Source: Marinobacterium jannaschii DSM 6295 | GTDB taxonomy: Bacteria; Pseudomonadota; Gammaproteobacteria; Pseudomonadales; Balneatricaceae | Direction: 5' to 3' | Length of the DNA: 64,000 bases | NCBI RefSeq assembly: GCF_000620085.1 | Contig: NZ_JHVJ01000006.1 | Coordinates: 124,001 to 188,000 of the forward strand | Part shown: in pieces, positions 12,743 through 17,906 of the stretch | How positions within the stretch are numbered: position 1 is the stretch's first letter | How the letters are laid out: every line of letters begins with the position of its first letter | Notes under the pieces: model-generated | Told to the model about the DNA's origin: nothing | The model's input: only the letters and a program-made list of their open reading frames with translations | The model's database searches: none | Translations under genes and position numbers: made by a program

Positions 12743-13447
12743 ATGGCCGCCCGTAAGGATTTTGCCTCCCGACCCAAAAAATCCAATTCCGCCAGTCGCA
12801 GTGCCCCTAAAAAAGCCGCGCCGGCCAAGCGTACAGCACCGGATAAAGCCAAAGCTCCTGCCAGGAAGGCCCCGGCGAAACGCAGCAACAACGATAAAGC
12901 CGCAGCTGCCGCCCGACCGGAGCGCCGCCCGTTGCCACTGGGCAAGCTGGTGATCACCCTGGCGCTGGCTGGCGGTCTTGGCTACCTGCTCTACTCTCTG
13001 ACCCAGGTCAGCCCGACTGCGCCAAAGCCACAATCGGTGGAACTGAAGCCCAAGCCTAAGCCGCTTATGCCAGAGGTAAAAAAGCAGCCAGTGGTGGAAG
13101 CCCAGGGTGATGACAAGACCCGCTTCGAGTTCTACAAGATGCTGCCGGAAAGCGAAGTCACCACTTCAGACCCGAGCAAGTACAAGTCGACACCCAAGGC
13201 AGAAAAGACAAAGTACAAATACCTGCTGCAGACCGGCTCTTTCCGCTCTGCGGCCGATGCCGACCGGATGCGTGCCAACCTGCTGCTACAGGGTCTGCCT
13301 AACGTACATACCAGCAAGTCAGTCAGCAGCAACGGCACCACCTGGTACCGGGTACGTACCGGCCCGTTTGACTCCCGTTCGCGACTGAACAAAGCCTATG
13401 ACAAGTTGGTGCGGATGAATATCGAACCGATGCAGATCAGGCAGTAG
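12743..13447 (+). CDS. SPOR-domain membrane protein (FtsN-like)
   Basis: This is a bitopic envelope protein expected to bind denuded septal peptidoglycan. The 234 residues have a very basic Ala/Lys/Pro-rich cytoplasmic tail (1-65, with repeats such as KAPARKAPAKR), one membrane helix at about 69-90, a Pro/Lys-rich linker and a C-terminal SPOR domain at about 153-232 (YKYLLQTGSFRSAADADRM, then VRTGPFDSRSRLNKAYDKL). In Pseudomonas the homologous gene lies between argS and hslV; here it is separated from hslV by the bufferin block. It may be FtsN or a DedD-like paralogue. Confidence 0.85.
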   Translation: MAARKDFASRPKKSNSASRSAPKKAAPAKRTAPDKAKAPARKAPAKRSNNDKAAAAARPERRPLPLGKLVITLALAGGLGYLLYSLTQVSPTAPKPQSVELKPKPKPLMPEVKKQPVVEAQGDDKTRFEFYKMLPESEVTTSDPSKYKSTPKAEKTKYKYLLQTGSFRSAADADRMRANLLLQGLPNVHTSKSVSSNGTTWYRVRTGPFDSRSRLNKAYDKLVRMNIEPMQIRQ

Positions 13448-13476
13448 GCCAGGGCTCACGGCTAAGGGTAAGGCAG

Positions 13477-13508
13477 AAAAAACGGAGGCCCTGTTCAGCA
13501 GGCCTCCG
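13477..13508. terminator. Terminator between the SPOR gene and the buf operon
   Basis: A perfect eight-base stem CGGAGGCC (13483-13490) / GGCCTCCG (13501-13508) is preceded by AAAAAA (13477-13482), which becomes a U-run on the minus strand. It most clearly ends the minus-strand bufferin operon and may also serve the SPOR gene. Confidence 0.75.
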
Positions 13509-13516
13509 AAGAAGGT

Positions 13517-13966
13517 TTAATCGCGCGAGAAGCGGCGATAGAGGAGGTTATCCAGCGACAGCCGGCCGGGCCCGAAGCAGACGAAATACGCCAGCATCAC
13601 GCCCCACATAATATGCTGCTGCACACCCGCGTGACTGATATCAGGGTAGGACAGCACCGCCACCAGGTTCAGTACGAACAGTCCCGCGGCGCTGAAACGT
13701 CCGAGCAGGCCGAGCAACAGCAGTGCCGGCAGAACAAGCTCTCCGGCTGTGGCCATCACCGCCGCCACTTGCGGAGACAGCAGCGGCACGCTGTACTCAT
13801 ATTCAAACAGTGTCATGGTGGTGGACCAGCTCTTAATCTTGGTCAGTCCGGAGAGAAAAAACACCCGGAAGATCCATACCCGCAAGACCAGGCTGAATAC
13901 CTCCTGCAACGGCATCTCCAACGGGCGGAGGCGGTTAAACTGACTGATCAGTGCCTGCATATTCAT
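13517..13966 (-). CDS. DoxX-family membrane protein, last gene of bufferin-type operon
   Basis: This 149-residue DoxX-like integral membrane protein has about four hydrophobic segments (VFSLVLRVWIFRVFFLSGLT, the MATAGELVLPALLLLGLLG region, FVLNLVAVLSY and HIMWGVMLAYFVCFGPG). DoxX proteins are regularly the fourth gene of DUF2282-DUF692-DUF2063 operons; their role there is not settled, though redox or copper handling has been suggested. The ATG at 13966 was preferred over a longer reading frame because residues before it look unlike the family and would lie deep inside the upstream gene. It overlaps that gene by 32 bases, suggesting translational coupling. Confidence 0.82.
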   Translation of the reverse strand: MNMQALISQFNRLRPLEMPLQEVFSLVLRVWIFRVFFLSGLTKIKSWSTTMTLFEYEYSVPLLSPQVAAVMATAGELVLPALLLLGLLGRFSAAGLFVLNLVAVLSYPDISHAGVQQHIMWGVMLAYFVCFGPGRLSLDNLLYRRFSRD

Positions 13967-14720
13967 CGTTCTCCAGTTCAAATCCACAGATCCAGCCGTG
14001 CTCAATCGCCCTGGGCAACAGCACAGCCACATTTTCCCCGAGCAGATCACATAGCCCTTCCAGGCCGGGATCTGCCAGCAGATGTTCCAGCATCGAAAAC
14101 TCTTCGGCATCGACAGGCTCAATAAACACCTCCCGACCCGGCCGGTGGATCACCAACTGCACCGGCGCTTCAAGATCCGGCAACTGTCCGTCAGGCCACT
14201 GAGGCTGATGGCAAAGCCAGAGTTGATCGACCCGAAAGCCGGCGGCCACCAGACTCAGCTGATCACTCAGAACGAAGCGCAGCCGACCGGCCTGTTGTTC
14301 GGCCGCCACGGCGAAGGCTGCAAAATCAAATGCCTGCGAATCCGCACTGTGGAAAGCCCGGTGCCAGGCCCACTCCAGCGCCAGCAACGCGGGCAGGTGG
14401 GGCACCTGCTGCACCGGCTCGAATCCGGTGCAAAAATCACTGAAGGTCTCGCCATAATCGTCCAGCCGCGTGACCTCTGAAGGGTGTTGCTGCACATAGC
14501 GCATCGCCAGCGCATCAAAGAATCGTTCACCGACAAACTGCCGGGCCACCGGGTAGATCTCCGCCAGGGCCTTACACAGCGTCGCCTGTACGCTGTCGCT
14601 ATAGGCCATCAGGCAATGCTCGGCGCTGCGCCCCAGTGCATTCGCCTGCAGTTGAGCCGCAGAGATCGGCTTGCCGTCATAGATCGCGCGCAGAAACTGC
14701 CGTTGGAACTCAGCCAGCAC
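13935..14720 (-). CDS. bufC: BufC/HvfC-type DUF2063 partner protein of the MNIO enzyme
   Basis: This DUF2063 (putative DNA-binding domain family) protein of 261 residues acts in characterised bufferin-like systems as the recognition partner that brings the precursor to the DUF692 enzyme. The N-terminus LAEFQRQFLRAIYDG and the segment LCKALAEIYPVARQFVGERFFDALAMRYVQQHPS are characteristic. A C-terminal beta-rich domain (about 150-240) includes VQLVIHRPGREV. It begins with GTG at 14720, overlaps the stop of the DUF692 gene by 11 bases and overlaps the DoxX gene downstream, so the three are tightly coupled. Confidence 0.88.
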   Translation of the reverse strand: MLAEFQRQFLRAIYDGKPISAAQLQANALGRSAEHCLMAYSDSVQATLCKALAEIYPVARQFVGERFFDALAMRYVQQHPSEVTRLDDYGETFSDFCTGFEPVQQVPHLPALLALEWAWHRAFHSADSQAFDFAAFAVAAEQQAGRLRFVLSDQLSLVAAGFRVDQLWLCHQPQWPDGQLPDLEAPVQLVIHRPGREVFIEPVDAEEFSMLEHLLADPGLEGLCDLLGENVAVLLPRAIEHGWICGFELENDEYAGTDQSV

Positions 14721-15573
14721 AACTCACCTCCCCGGCCGTTTGGGCCGCGATGGCGCGGGCTTTCTCCGCTTCGGCTTCCAGCACTTCAAATCCGGGAATA
14801 TCGTTATCCCACTCGATCAGTGTCGGCACCGGCCCAACGCGTTCGAGCGCCTGCCGGTATAAGTCCCAGACAGCGTCATAAACCGGCCGGCTGTGGCTGT
14901 CGAGCAACAGATCGCCCTGGTCCTCAAACCCTGCCAGATGGATCTCGCGCACCCGCTTCGCCGGTACGCCGCTGATGTAGTCAGCCGCGCTAAAACCGTG
15001 GTTAGTGGCACTGACATAGACATTATTCACGTCCAGTAGCAGGTCGCAGTCCGCCAGCTGACAGATCAGGCTGACAAACTCCCACTCGCTCATCTCTGAT
15101 TCGGCGAAGGTGACATAACTGGACAGGTTCTCCACTACCAGTCGCTGGCCGAGGCAGTTCTGCACCTGATCGATCCTTTCCGCCAGGTGACGGGCACAGA
15201 GTTCGGTATAGGGCAGAGGCAGTAACTCATGACTGTTGTATTCATCACTGGCACACCAGCACAGGTGTTCAGATACCCAGGCCGGCTGATAGATATCCAC
15301 CAGTTCTTTCAGTCTATGCAGGTATTCTTTATTCAGTGGTGCCGCCGAACCCAGTGACAGGCCGACACCATGAAAGGTGACAGGATACCGCTGACGGATC
15401 TGCTCCAGATACTGGTGTGGCTGGCCGCCTGCACCCATATAGTTATCGGTCATCACCTCAAACCAGGGCACGCGGGGCTTATGACTGAGGATATGTTGAT
15501 AGTGGCAGCTTCGCAGCCCCAGCCCCACACCTTCGATCCTGTTTTGCACGCTGAGATACTCCCTGTCGAACAT
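14710..15573 (-). CDS. bufB: BufB/HvfB-type multinuclear non-heme iron oxidase (DUF692/MNIO)
   Basis: MNIO enzymes use two or three iron ions to modify cysteines of ribosomally made peptides. The 287-residue TIM-barrel-type protein shows the expected metal ligands: His68 (FHGVGLSLGS), His103 (SEHLCW), Glu149 (VENLSSY), Asp181 and Asn184 (LDVNNVYVS), His192, His212 (IHLAG), Asp225 and His227 (DSHSRPV) and Glu254 (IEWDNDIP). It lies 53 bases after the precursor gene, with a terminator/antiterminator hairpin between them, and overlaps bufC. The expected substrate is the DUF2282 precursor encoded just upstream. Confidence 0.92.
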   Translation of the reverse strand: MFDREYLSVQNRIEGVGLGLRSCHYQHILSHKPRVPWFEVMTDNYMGAGGQPHQYLEQIRQRYPVTFHGVGLSLGSAAPLNKEYLHRLKELVDIYQPAWVSEHLCWCASDEYNSHELLPLPYTELCARHLAERIDQVQNCLGQRLVVENLSSYVTFAESEMSEWEFVSLICQLADCDLLLDVNNVYVSATNHGFSAADYISGVPAKRVREIHLAGFEDQGDLLLDSHSRPVYDAVWDLYRQALERVGPVPTLIEWDNDIPGFEVLEAEAEKARAIAAQTAGEVSCAG

Positions 15574-15582
15574 TCAGGCCGG

Positions 15583-15613
15583 AAAAAGCCGGACGAGTCA
15601 CGCTCTTCCGGCC
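15583..15613 (-). terminator. Attenuator between bufA and bufB
   Basis: On the minus strand GCCGGA (15612-15607) pairs with TCCGGC (15593-15588), with an inner GAG/CTC extension and a five-base loop, followed by TTTTT (15587-15583): a good intrinsic terminator. An alternative stem pairs GGCCGGAA (15613-15606) with TTCCGGCC (15584-15577), covering the same left arm. The two folds exclude each other. Confidence 0.7.
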
Positions 15614-15626
15614 TTCTTAAGCGGTG

Positions 15627-15893
15627 TTAGCTCTTCTTGCTGACGACCGAGCCACCCACGATTTTGCTGCAGGTACCTTCAGGTACATAAACCCATTCAT
15701 CTGCGACGCCATCTTTTGCTGCCTGACCGGCGCAACCATGGCTGGCAGTCCCACAATCATTCATACCCGCTTTTACGATACCGGCGCATTTTTCCATACC
15801 CGGCTTACCCGCCATTGCGGAAGAGGCTGCAGTCATGCCAATGGCCAGAACACCTGCTACTGCTGCGGACTTAAGTGCATCACGACGTTTCAT
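15627..15893 (-). CDS. bufA: BufA-type bufferin precursor (DUF2282), secreted cysteine-containing peptide
   Basis: This 88-residue exported precursor has a signal peptide with basic start MKRRDALKS, a hydrophobic core and cleavage near SSAMA-G (about residue 28). The mature part has four cysteines, Cys36 (EKCAG), Cys47 (NDCGT), Cys54 (HGCAG) and Cys75 (EGTCSK), spaced as in DUF2282 bufferins. In studied members the MNIO enzyme converts cysteines to thiol-containing heterocycles that bind copper. The ATG at 15893 is chosen over one 15 bases upstream because GGAGA lies seven to ten bases before it and the basic signal start fits. First gene of the operon, followed by an attenuator. Confidence 0.9.
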
Positions 15894-15914
15894 ATTAAAA
15901 ATCTCCATACGGAT

Positions 15915-15934
15915 TTCGTATCTAGTTGGGTTAC
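15915..15934 (-). promoter_or_regulatory. Possible ECF-type promoter element before bufA
   Basis: On the minus strand GTAACC (15934-15929) is followed by CGAA (15918-15915), words resembling the -35 and -10 of ECF-dependent bufferin promoters as I remember them from Caulobacter SigF. The gap here is only 10 bases instead of about 16, so either the -10 is elsewhere or the match is chance. Confidence 0.25.
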
Positions 15935-16072
15935 ACCTGCCAGCAAATCACCGCTTTTATGCAGGCCTCATAAGTAAAGACCCGGTCAGGCCAAAAAACC
16001 TCGCAAAATTTTTGAATTTTTTTTTGTCCAGCACCTCTTATCCGATACCCCCGCTATAAAAAAGACAATGTC

Positions 16073-16630
16073 ATGGGAATAAAACAGCTTCTTCGCTGGC
16101 GTAGCCGCAGTCGCTTTGACGACCTGGTTGACCAGCACCACAGCGCGATTTACAGCTACGCCTGCTGGCTCACCCGATGCCCGGCGCGTGCTGAAGATCT
16201 GGTGCAGGAGGTTTACGTTCGGGCATGGAAGCATCTGGACCAGCTGGAAAAGGAGGTTTGTGGCCGTAGCTGGCTGATCACCATATTGCGCCGGGAGCAC
16301 CTGCGCTGGCTGGATAAACGCAGTAATGGTCATAACGAAATGGCGCTGGACGAAGAACTGGCACAGGATGAAAGGTTCAGTGATCCTTACTGTGCCGATA
16401 CCGAACTGCAACGCCATCAGTTACAGAAGGCGATGCTCAGGCTGGAAAGCGGCTATCTTGAGCCATTGCTAATGCAGGTACTGGGAGGCTACAGTATCGG
16501 CGAAATAGCCAAGTCGCTGGAGATAACAGAATCGGCCGTGCAATCCCGCCTCTACCGGGCGCGACTGCAGCTGAGCCAGACCCTGAACAGCGATACAGCG
16601 ATAACCGCACCGCAACGGGGAGTGATCTGA
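16073..16630 (+). CDS. ECF RNA polymerase sigma factor next to the buf operon
   Basis: This 185-residue RpoE-like alternative sigma factor has region 2 at about 15-85 (DDLVDQHHSAIYSYACWLT, then AEDLVQEVYVRAWKHLDQL) and region 4 at about 118-170, with the helix-turn-helix GGYSIGEIAKSLEITESAVQSRLYRAR. It diverges from bufA across a 179-base spacer and is followed six bases later by a membrane-anchored protein that is probably its anti-sigma factor. By analogy with bufferin loci controlled by ECF factors, it likely drives bufA in response to metal or envelope stress. No strong ribosome binding site precedes it. Confidence 0.88.
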   Translation: MGIKQLLRWRSRSRFDDLVDQHHSAIYSYACWLTRCPARAEDLVQEVYVRAWKHLDQLEKEVCGRSWLITILRREHLRWLDKRSNGHNEMALDEELAQDERFSDPYCADTELQRHQLQKAMLRLESGYLEPLLMQVLGGYSIGEIAKSLEITESAVQSRLYRARLQLSQTLNSDTAITAPQRGVI

Positions 16631-16636
16631 GCGGAT

Positions 16637-17311
16637 ATGAATGACCTGGAATTTCGCCGCCGCGTACTGAGCGGTGAAACAGCGGATCAACAGCTACTCG
16701 ATGCAGCAGCTGGCAACCCCCAGCGCCTGCGCTGGCTGGACCAGGCACGCCAGCTGGACCATAGCCTGCAACAGGCAACCCGGATAACACCACCCGGAGA
16801 CCTGGCGCAACGCCTGAAACAAGGTCCGCGCCGCCGGCCTTTCGTAAAGGCCATCGCGGGCAGCGCTATCGCCGCCGCGCTGATTCTGGCAGTAACCCTG
16901 CAGCTGTATCCGCGCCCCGCTACACCCGACCTGCCCCAGGCGCTGCTGGCACACCTGAATCACGAACTGGTCAGCCTGTATGCAGATGGCCCGGTGCAGC
17001 AGCAGTGGGTGGCCAATGCCGCCAGCCGGCTGGGATATAAGATTGATCAGCCGATTCCCGGCATCAGCTATGCCGGAGCCTGTGACGTGGCCGGGAACAA
17101 AAGCCTGCACCTGACGGTAAAAACCGCCAACAGCCGGGCCAGCCTGTTTCTGATGCCCGCGCTGGAGAAAACTGCTGTGTCCGAATTCAGGCTGCAGAAA
17201 CTGCACGGCCGCATCATCCCGTTGCAACAGGGTAGTGCTGCGATCCTCAGCCCAAGCCGCGAAGACCTCGACCAATTGCAACAACAGATTGAGCAGCAAA
17301 TCAGTTTCTGA
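16637..17311 (+). CDS. Membrane-bound anti-sigma-like protein (DUF3379 type)
   Basis: The 224-residue protein has a short cytoplasmic N-terminal part (1-75, beginning MNDLEFRRRVLSGE), one membrane helix at about 76-92 (AIAGSAIAAALILAVTL) and a periplasmic domain of about 130 residues. Position directly after the ECF sigma gene and the topology argue for an anti-sigma factor; the resemblance to DUF3379 is by eye. The Zn-binding HxxxCxxC motif of the common anti-sigma domain is absent. A single periplasmic cysteine (GACDV, about residue 148) could matter for sensing. The heat-shock promoter of hslV starts two bases after its stop codon. Confidence 0.72.
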   Translation: MNDLEFRRRVLSGETADQQLLDAAAGNPQRLRWLDQARQLDHSLQQATRITPPGDLAQRLKQGPRRRPFVKAIAGSAIAAALILAVTLQLYPRPATPDLPQALLAHLNHELVSLYADGPVQQQWVANAASRLGYKIDQPIPGISYAGACDVAGNKSLHLTVKTANSRASLFLMPALEKTAVSEFRLQKLHGRIIPLQQGSAAILSPSREDLDQLQQQIEQQISF

Positions 17312-17312
17312 A

Positions 17313-17340
17313 CTTGAAATCCTGTTGAACGCCTCCATCT
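17313..17340 (+). promoter_or_regulatory. Sigma-32 (heat-shock) promoter of hslVU
   Basis: CTTGAA (17313-17318), a 14-base spacer and CTCCATCT (17333-17340) match the RpoH consensus (CTTGAAA / CCCATnT). It lies 35 bases before hslV and just after the preceding stop codon. Confidence 0.75.
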
Positions 17341-17375
17341 TTGCTGCATAGATTCAATAAAGACTGGAGCATCTG

Positions 17376-17906
17376 ATGACAACAATCGTATCCGTTCGCC
17401 GTGGTGACCAAGTGGTTGTTGGCGGTGACGGCCAGGTTTCCCTGGGCAACACCGTTATGAAGGGAACCGCTAAAAAGGTCAATGTGCTGCCAAAACACCA
17501 GGTGATCACCGGCTTTGCAGGCTCCACCGCTGATGCGATCACCCTGCGTGATCTGTTCGAGCAACAACTGGAAAAGCATCACGGCAACATCACCAACGCC
17601 TGTATCCACCTGGCCCGTGAATGGCGCAGCGACCGCGCCCTGCGCCGCCTTGAGGCGCTGATGCTGGTTGCCAATAGCGAGAAGACCTACCTGATCTCCG
17701 GTAACGGCGACGTCATCGAACCTGAAGACGGCGTTATTGCCATCGGCTCCGGCGGCAACTTCGCCCTGGCCGCAGCCCGTGCGTTGACTGACAACACCGA
17801 ACTAGCCGCACGTGACATCGTTGAGAAGAGCCTGCATATCGCTGCCGGCATCTGTGTCTTTACCAACGACAACCTGACAATCGAAACGCTGGAAGCTGAA
17901 GCCTGA
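17376..17906 (+). CDS. hslV: HslV, proteolytic subunit of the HslUV protease
   Basis: HslV is a threonine protease related to proteasome beta subunits; it forms a dodecamer that degrades proteins unfolded by HslU. The 176-residue protein begins MTTIVSVRR, giving Thr2 as nucleophile after Met removal, followed by [20 protein letters not shown] and the [14 protein letters not shown] segment. Length is the family norm. It is preceded by a sigma-32 promoter and followed 17 bases later by hslU. Confidence 0.98.

Follow-up and report, generated by a model that had tools for sequence, protein, structure and literature searches.

A bufferin operon divergent from an ECF sigma factor gene and a gene for a DUF3379 membrane protein, a predicted anti-sigma factor with conserved periplasmic His, Cys and His residues, in Marinobacterium jannaschii

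Gene content of the buf and ECF-DUF3379 locus

The stretch of 64,000 nucleotides analysed here, called the window and numbered from its first letter, comes from Marinobacterium jannaschii DSM 6295 (contig NZ_JHVJ01000006.1, positions 124,001 to 188,000) and carries between positions 13517 and 17311 six genes of a predicted bufferin-type locus for a ribosomally synthesised and post-translationally modified peptide (RiPP), its putative regulators included. Four genes lie on the minus strand and are, in the direction of transcription, the DUF2282 bufferin precursor of 88 amino acids (15627..15893; Pfam DUF2282 78.5 bits, cut-off 22.4), the MNIO (DUF692) enzyme BufB (14710..15573; Pfam 367.7 bits, cut-off 25), the DUF2063 partner (PME-type 1 / BufC) with a GTG start (13935..14720; Pfam DUF2063 71.4 bits, cut-off 27.2) and, as the terminal gene of the operon, a DoxX-family membrane protein of 149 amino acids (13517..13966; Pfam DoxX 62.3 bits, cut-off 23.6). 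On the plus strand an extracytoplasmic function (ECF) sigma factor of 185 amino acids (16073..16630; Pfam Sigma70_r2 55.8 bits, cut-off 24, and Sigma70_r4_2 46.2 bits, cut-off 25.7) is followed by a DUF3379 membrane protein, the predicted anti-sigma factor (16637..17311), residues 1-222 of which are covered by the DUF3379 profile (PF11859) at 125.4 bits (cut-off 33.2). The start of DoxX was set at the ATG at 13966, which matches the family start, the open frame extending further. Counted from this ATG, DUF2063 and DoxX overlap by 32 nt, and MNIO and DUF2063 overlap by 11 nt; 53 nt lie between the precursor and MNIO genes and 6 nt between the ECF and DUF3379 genes. The divergent gap (15894-16072) holds on its minus strand the ECF promoter predicted for the buf operon (15976..16007), with the sequence TTTGCGAG-N16-GGGTCTTT, which was identified by conserved spacing and matrix score. 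The original prediction, made from the sequence alone, had placed six genes at these positions with the buf genes overlapping or adjacent, and the open frames and the Pfam scores above curated cut-offs bear this out. Its designation of the genes as a bufferin-type RiPP locus and as an ECF/anti-sigma pair is likewise supported by profiles, synteny and the conserved promoter.

By its predicted products the operon is a complete one of the Buf1 kind, with a DUF2282 precursor, a bufferin-type MNIO next door, and DUF2063 and DoxX proteins. The enzyme belongs to the NCBIfam family 'MNIO family bufferin maturase' (MNIO_BufB, 384.5 against a cut-off of 310), and the precursor, DoxX and DUF2063 proteins score below the cut-offs of the BufA2 equivalog (23.7 vs 60), the HvfX equivalog (56.3 vs 80) and HvfC (31.9 vs 142), respectively. 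The enzyme aligns with the solved homologue 3BWW at E 1.8e-46 and has the motifs FHG (67), SEH (101), VENLS (147), LDVNN (180), IHLAG (211), LDSH (224) and IEWD (253), in which the H, E, D and N positions, which we take to be metal ligands, are mostly common to both proteins, SEH being SDH in 3BWW. The precursor has four cysteines after a start that looks like a signal peptide when judged by eye. In all 4 rows of the window lineage (window 15861-15893; L165-L167) the precursor has a start resembling a twin-arginine signal, M-x-RR-[DE]-A, which occurs in 0 of 12 other linked precursor rows (L040 and L157 being one locus). The twin-arginine signal profile TIGR01409 gave 13.4 bits on the precursor, below its cut-off of 16.7, and published bufferins are reported to be Sec-dependent. 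Five MNIO matches were seen in the same genome, which also holds a second DUF2282-type gene (L077, contig C8) with a lipoprotein-like precursor and two repeated Cys-rich stretches, adjoining an MNIO gene.

Comparison with known divergons

The divergon architecture is already known, because it has been published in PMC12452194, PMC10304878 and PMC3511200. Buf1 clusters comprise DUF2282, MNIO, DUF2063 and DoxX genes with genes for a sigma factor and the anti-sigma factor NrsF, and like the window they encode a four-cysteine DUF2282 precursor, an MNIO, a DUF2063 protein of PME-type 1, DoxX and a sigma factor; unlike in the window, where the anti-sigma candidate is DUF3379, the anti-sigma factor named for them is NrsF (PMC12452194). 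In the gigPABT/rpoQ-rsqA divergon of Cupriavidus metallidurans, genes for the small periplasmic four-cysteine peptide GigP, the metal-binding GigA, the DUF2063 protein GigB and the DoxX-related GigT are similarly divergent from those of an ECF sigma factor and a predicted membrane anti-sigma factor (PMC10304878). The latter, RsqA, is apparently also of the NrsF kind, judging by a Cupriavidus ortholog in an NrsF alignment (PMC3511200), whereas the window has DUF3379. The sigma-F/NrsF system of Caulobacter again pairs an ECF factor with a membrane anti-sigma factor, and the conserved cysteines of NrsF, predicted to face the periplasm, matter; the terms DUF2282 and DUF692 are present in the text of the paper (PMC3511200). 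NrsF has six predicted transmembrane spans (PMC3511200) but the DUF3379 protein of the window one, and for the latter DUF3379 is the sole Pfam match at thresholds of both E 0.001 and E 0.01. In Acinetobacter, SigAb resembles the switch proposed here as an ECF factor that responds to copper, is paired with anti-sigma proteins encoded in its operon and has few direct targets. These differ, however, being SigAb itself, relA and a small RNA, and 'DUF692' was not found in the main text of that paper (PMC12153292). Thus the claim that the bufferin locus has its own ECF/anti-sigma pair stands as to the pair, and its novelty is weakened by the sigma/NrsF genes of Buf1 clusters (PMC12452194) and by gigPABT/rpoQ-rsqA (PMC10304878). 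The new element is the regulator, DUF3379 in place of NrsF, which is undescribed as far as the literature searched shows, a full-text search for 'DUF3379' having found no paper. The operon is ordinary, and the regulator is unusual, with a conserved, testable candidate metal site.

Distribution and linkage of DUF3379

DUF3379 was matched in 57 of the 369 class genomes searched, 50 of them above the cut-off. Of the 37 nearest genomes 2 had it, the own genome and one from another family, and a family-wide protein search found it in 4 of 116 genomes, namely the own and three of another genus. Forty loci (L037-L076) were gathered by DUF3379 itself, that is 39 of the 60 class-search matches outside the own genome (the better-scoring ones) and one from the nearest-genome search. 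An ECF gene stood beside DUF3379 in 36 of the 40; two of the four exceptions are cut by contig ends (L050, L073) and two had no ECF neighbour detected (L043, L049). The gene pairing, together with the relatives carrying a zinc-type motif described below, suggests that DUF3379 would bind and inhibit the adjacent ECF factor. The remaining loci came from a sigma-factor query, and their ECF pairing (part of 114 of 119) is biased and was not counted as evidence. Eleven of the 40 loci had buf genes at a distance of at most 4.5 kb from DUF3379, including L052 with a weak MNIO match (7e-07) and L040 with bufA but no MNIO shown. Parsimony on the midpoint-rooted tree of 119 loci gave 8 state changes for buf linkage, which therefore arose or was lost repeatedly. 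The full six-gene arrangement recurs in L165, L166 and L167 (L166 being cut at its end), and their genus holds the closest DUF3379 proteins, with 41-48% identity. At L043, one of the loci where no ECF neighbour was detected, DUF3379 lies directly beside a buf operon. Many relatives in Vibrio and Alteromonadales (L081-L160) have the ECF-DUF3379 pair near BatD/VWA, fadIJ-type and FadL-type genes, not near buf.

The periplasmic His106-Cys149-His158 set

The DUF3379 protein of the window is predicted to have cytoplasmic helices at about residues 1-66, a transmembrane segment at about 68-92, the only one by hydropathy, and a periplasmic domain at about 97-224. AlphaFold (AF2) modelled the whole protein with a mean predicted local distance difference test (pLDDT) score of 89.7 and a predicted template modelling (pTM) score of 0.61, and the periplasmic domain alone with 91.3 and 0.86, respectively. 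Many relatives start MNCLEFRR...HxxxCxxC; the window protein starts MNDLEFRR and has no HxxxCxxC, which confirms the original prediction that the anti-sigma candidate lacks the usual zinc motif. The motif is present as a pattern in 43 of 123 DUF3379 rows, the 80 loci of the sigma-factor query being mostly without it. Zinc-finger Pfam models had no match in 33 proteins (set A1), and zinc binding in the relatives is therefore argued from the HxxxCxxC pattern only. The further step of the prediction, that the sensing mode may be new because the zinc motif is missing, is half right. The motif is indeed missing, but its place is the predicted cytoplasmic end, where the sigma factor would bind, and a large group of relatives lacks it as well. 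Zinc-motif loss as the key to sensing was rejected on this position, on the mere 2 state changes of the motif by parsimony on the 119-locus tree, and on periplasmic residues that are kept either way.

Those residues are His106, Cys149 and His158. Among the 123 rows, which include one fragment (L122) and a few loci counted twice, 117 retain His106, 120 Cys149 and 117 His158, and all 17 buf-linked rows have all three. Their columns rank among the six best conserved of the whole protein and are the top three of its periplasmic part. In a periplasmic alignment of 52 chosen sequences, which leaves out L082 (without both histidines), they are the sole invariant columns. Joint loss of His106 and His158 was seen in five rows and loss of His106 alone in one, a joint loss with P 2.9e-8 when uncorrected for relatedness, two of the five rows being sisters on the tree. 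Such joint loss is the pattern expected of partners and suits a ligand set. In the model, His106 is in helix 99-109, and Cys149 and His158 are on the neighbouring strands 143-151 and 154-162, where they could face the same side. The candidate for a new sensing mode is instead this periplasmic His106-Cys149-His158 set, conserved whether or not the zinc motif is present.

The predicted promoter of the buf operon

The gap in L165-L167 keeps the element TTTGCRAG-N16-(G/C)GGTC(T/C) with constant spacing, a mostly different spacer and an A-rich stretch ahead. L165 and L166 are nearly identical, which leaves about three independent promoter sequences, and L167 has CGGTCC where the others have GGGTCT. 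The element differs from the sigma-F promoter of Caulobacter, GTAACC-N16-CGAA (PMC3511200), which at up to 2 mismatches had 59 matches in the window and 0 in the 15894-16072 gap. An exact search of the own genome gave a single match, the window site, and none at 1 mismatch; at 2-3 mismatches there were 77 matches vs 128 in all for a reversed control pattern, and therefore no further targets are claimed in this genome.

GGTCT was found upstream of 29 of the 41 sigma genes of zinc-motif relatives, against a shuffle mean of 4.7 and a maximum of 12, and TGTAAKAA-like letters are at the same distance from it in all three frames. The first promoter statistic, with GGTCT upstream of 72 of 108 sigma genes (shuffle mean 15.2, max 24), was discarded as too generous. 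Relatives without the zinc motif have GGTC in 72 of 78, in one frame relative to the start in 62 of these 72, and as this GGTC may be coding the matrix was built on zinc-motif relatives. It was trained on 28 of their sigma-gene promoters, with no buf promoter and no sequence of the window lineage, and the training sites were chosen for GGTCT, leaving just the upstream half free. At L045, L047, L057, L061 and L063 the sigma-gene GGTCT starts 12 to 14 nt ahead of the ATG, so that the transcripts would have no leader or almost none.

With this matrix the bufA site of the window scored 10.0 bits, which is the top of the divergent gap (next 2.4) and the 6th on both strands of the 64-kb window. Twelve further linked bufA genes were scored, and their best upstream values lay between 13 and 23 for nine, were low for two and below zero for one. 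GGTCT occurred upstream of linked bufA in 10 of 12 distinct regions, the window included (shuffle mean 1.8, max 6). As controls, it was found upstream of 122 of the 944 remaining genes of these loci, in 0 of 7 bufA loci without DUF3379 (10 rows), and in 1 of 19 rows (22 loci) from genomes without DUF3379, there with no matching -35.

Proposed mechanism and competing explanations

The locus is probably a Buf1-type bufferin operon under a dedicated switch of an ECF sigma factor and a DUF3379 membrane protein, which would couple a periplasmic metal signal to buf transcription. Sequence evidence supports the operon itself, the pairing of the two regulator genes, the promoter and the conservation of the residues, whereas binding of sigma and of metal, release by the signal, modification of the cysteines and sequestration of copper are inferred. 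The N-terminal helical domain of DUF3379 would hold the ECF factor at the inner membrane. The periplasmic signal would act on the C-terminal domain, which has His106, Cys149 and His158 and whose predicted fold resembles that of the RseB/MucB C-terminal domain; most likely this signal is Cu(I) in excess, or some other soft metal, binding to the domain. The freed ECF factor would then transcribe the buf operon from the promoter at 15976-16007. The two central cysteines of the precursor would be modified by MNIO with DUF2063, and the peptide would be exported and bind metal.

It is unlikely, but deserves the most weight among the alternatives, that the periplasmic domain of DUF3379 senses envelope damage, as RseB/MucB do, that the three residues are structural or hold another ligand, and that buf belongs to an envelope-stress response. 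RseA/RseB and MucA/MucB resemble the window in having a membrane anti-sigma factor, and the C-terminal domain of RseB/MucB appears to resemble the predicted periplasmic domain. It was the best Foldseek match of the whole model (E 0.044, prob 0.98) and of the domain (E 0.096), and VIA aligned it to the whole model with Z 8.1 (3.1 A over 90 residues) and to the domain with Z 7.8. Moreover, most DUF3379 genes lie away from buf, and many relatives from the sigma-factor query are by the BatD/VWA, fadIJ-type and FadL-type genes named above. On the other hand, a Z near 8 can reflect a common arrangement, and TM1622 (1vr8) tied with RseB/MucB in VIA, the following entry having Z 6.0. Profile comparison of DUF3379 with RseB by hhalign was weak at E 0.07, and homology in sequence was rejected as not significant; a profile search of the PDB (profile A3) gave just 5 matches, all at E 0.6 or worse. 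The resemblance is thus a lead and no proof of kinship. Unlike in RseA/RseB and MucA/MucB, the domain is here fused to the anti-sigma protein and carries the conserved His, Cys and His, a set that was absent from the 13 RseB C-terminal ends compared (L221 and L231, for example, have no Cys there). Three His/Cys columns among the six most conserved, with two residues that vanish together, argue for a ligand set and against damage sensing.

Also improbable is that the product buffers another metal (gold, cadmium or zinc) or none, the modified peptide having another role. The sigma-F/NrsF system of Caulobacter responds to chromium and cadmium (PMC3511200), which would fit a metal other than copper. 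However, bufferins chelate copper, their central cysteines being modified and the outer two joined by a disulfide, and copper-stressed cells grow better with them (PMC12452194); copper, like gold, also induces gig (PMC10304878). The 'copper buffer' role of the window peptide would follow by analogy from the published bufferin work (PMC12452194).

Several observations weigh against control of buf by the adjacent sigma factor. Five other places in the window outscore the bufA site with the matrix, and the -35 of the window (TGCGAG) departs from the TGTAAT/G of the group. Among the linked bufA genes, L106 and L039 score low (7.6 and 8.6) and L053 has no site. No plus-strand site was among the best four of the gap, so that an ECF-type site before the window sigma gene was not found; transcription of rpoQ-rsqA needs the housekeeping sigma factor (PMC10304878), which fits the absence of such a site. 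Unlinked bufA genes in DUF3379 genomes gave 16 rows from 19 loci (no row came from L236, which is linked, or from L249, and L245 is the same as the linked L043), and a well-placed site was present in 2 rows only (L239 and L242), 13 others having no GGTCT upstream and L234 one far upstream with no -35. Control of buf is therefore not general for the sigma group, and regulation of unlinked buf genes by the same sigma factor was set aside as mostly unsupported. That the ECF pair and buf are neighbours by chance or history and another sigma factor transcribes buf would agree with these 2 of 16 rows and with Cupriavidus, where RpoQ-dependent initiation of gig transcription was not demonstrated and metal-treated cells expressed gig more strongly once rpoQ was deleted (PMC10304878), but is very unlikely, as linkage is recurrent, the promoter spacing is conserved and matches the sigma-gene promoters of the group, and a simple scan found no sigma-70-like site in the gap.

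There are few cases in which it is understood how bacteria detect toxic metal in the periplasm and relay this to their sigma factors. Should DUF3379 prove to be an anti-sigma factor that binds metal, a widespread unnamed family would gain a function, and three point mutations and one promoter would allow a direct test of bufferin induction. A wider proposal, which we regard as tentative and somewhat more doubtful than probable, is that DUF3379 is a family of single-pass anti-sigma factors whose RseB-like domain binds Cu(I) or another soft metal via His, Cys and His, which has its own ECF promoter class, and to which buf was recruited several times independently. If true, this would mean periplasmic metal-ECF coupling across Gammaproteobacteria including Vibrio, Shewanella and Pseudoalteromonas.

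Genomic position and congeners

The buf/ECF island (window 13447-17376) lies between a SPOR-domain gene and hslV. In four congeners (L214-L217) the tblastn matches of SPOR and hslV are separated by 135 to 393 nt, and no ECF or DUF3379 match falls in that interval, whereas L165 and L167, which belong to a different genus of the family, have the island at this SPOR-hslV junction. Its absence there from 4 of 4 congeners and its presence in the other genus suggest that the island was gained or lost through recombination in the flanking genes' region.

Three congeners (L218, L219 and L220) have another bufA-MNIO-DUF2063 cluster elsewhere, followed by a different, distant ECF gene. A membrane protein gene follows that ECF gene in L218 and L219, the sequence of L220 ending earlier, and the L219 protein had no Pfam family match at E 0.1. 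This anti-sigma-like protein of the congeners has a short Cys-containing stretch weakly like that of DUF3379 (hhalign E 0.04 over 31 columns).

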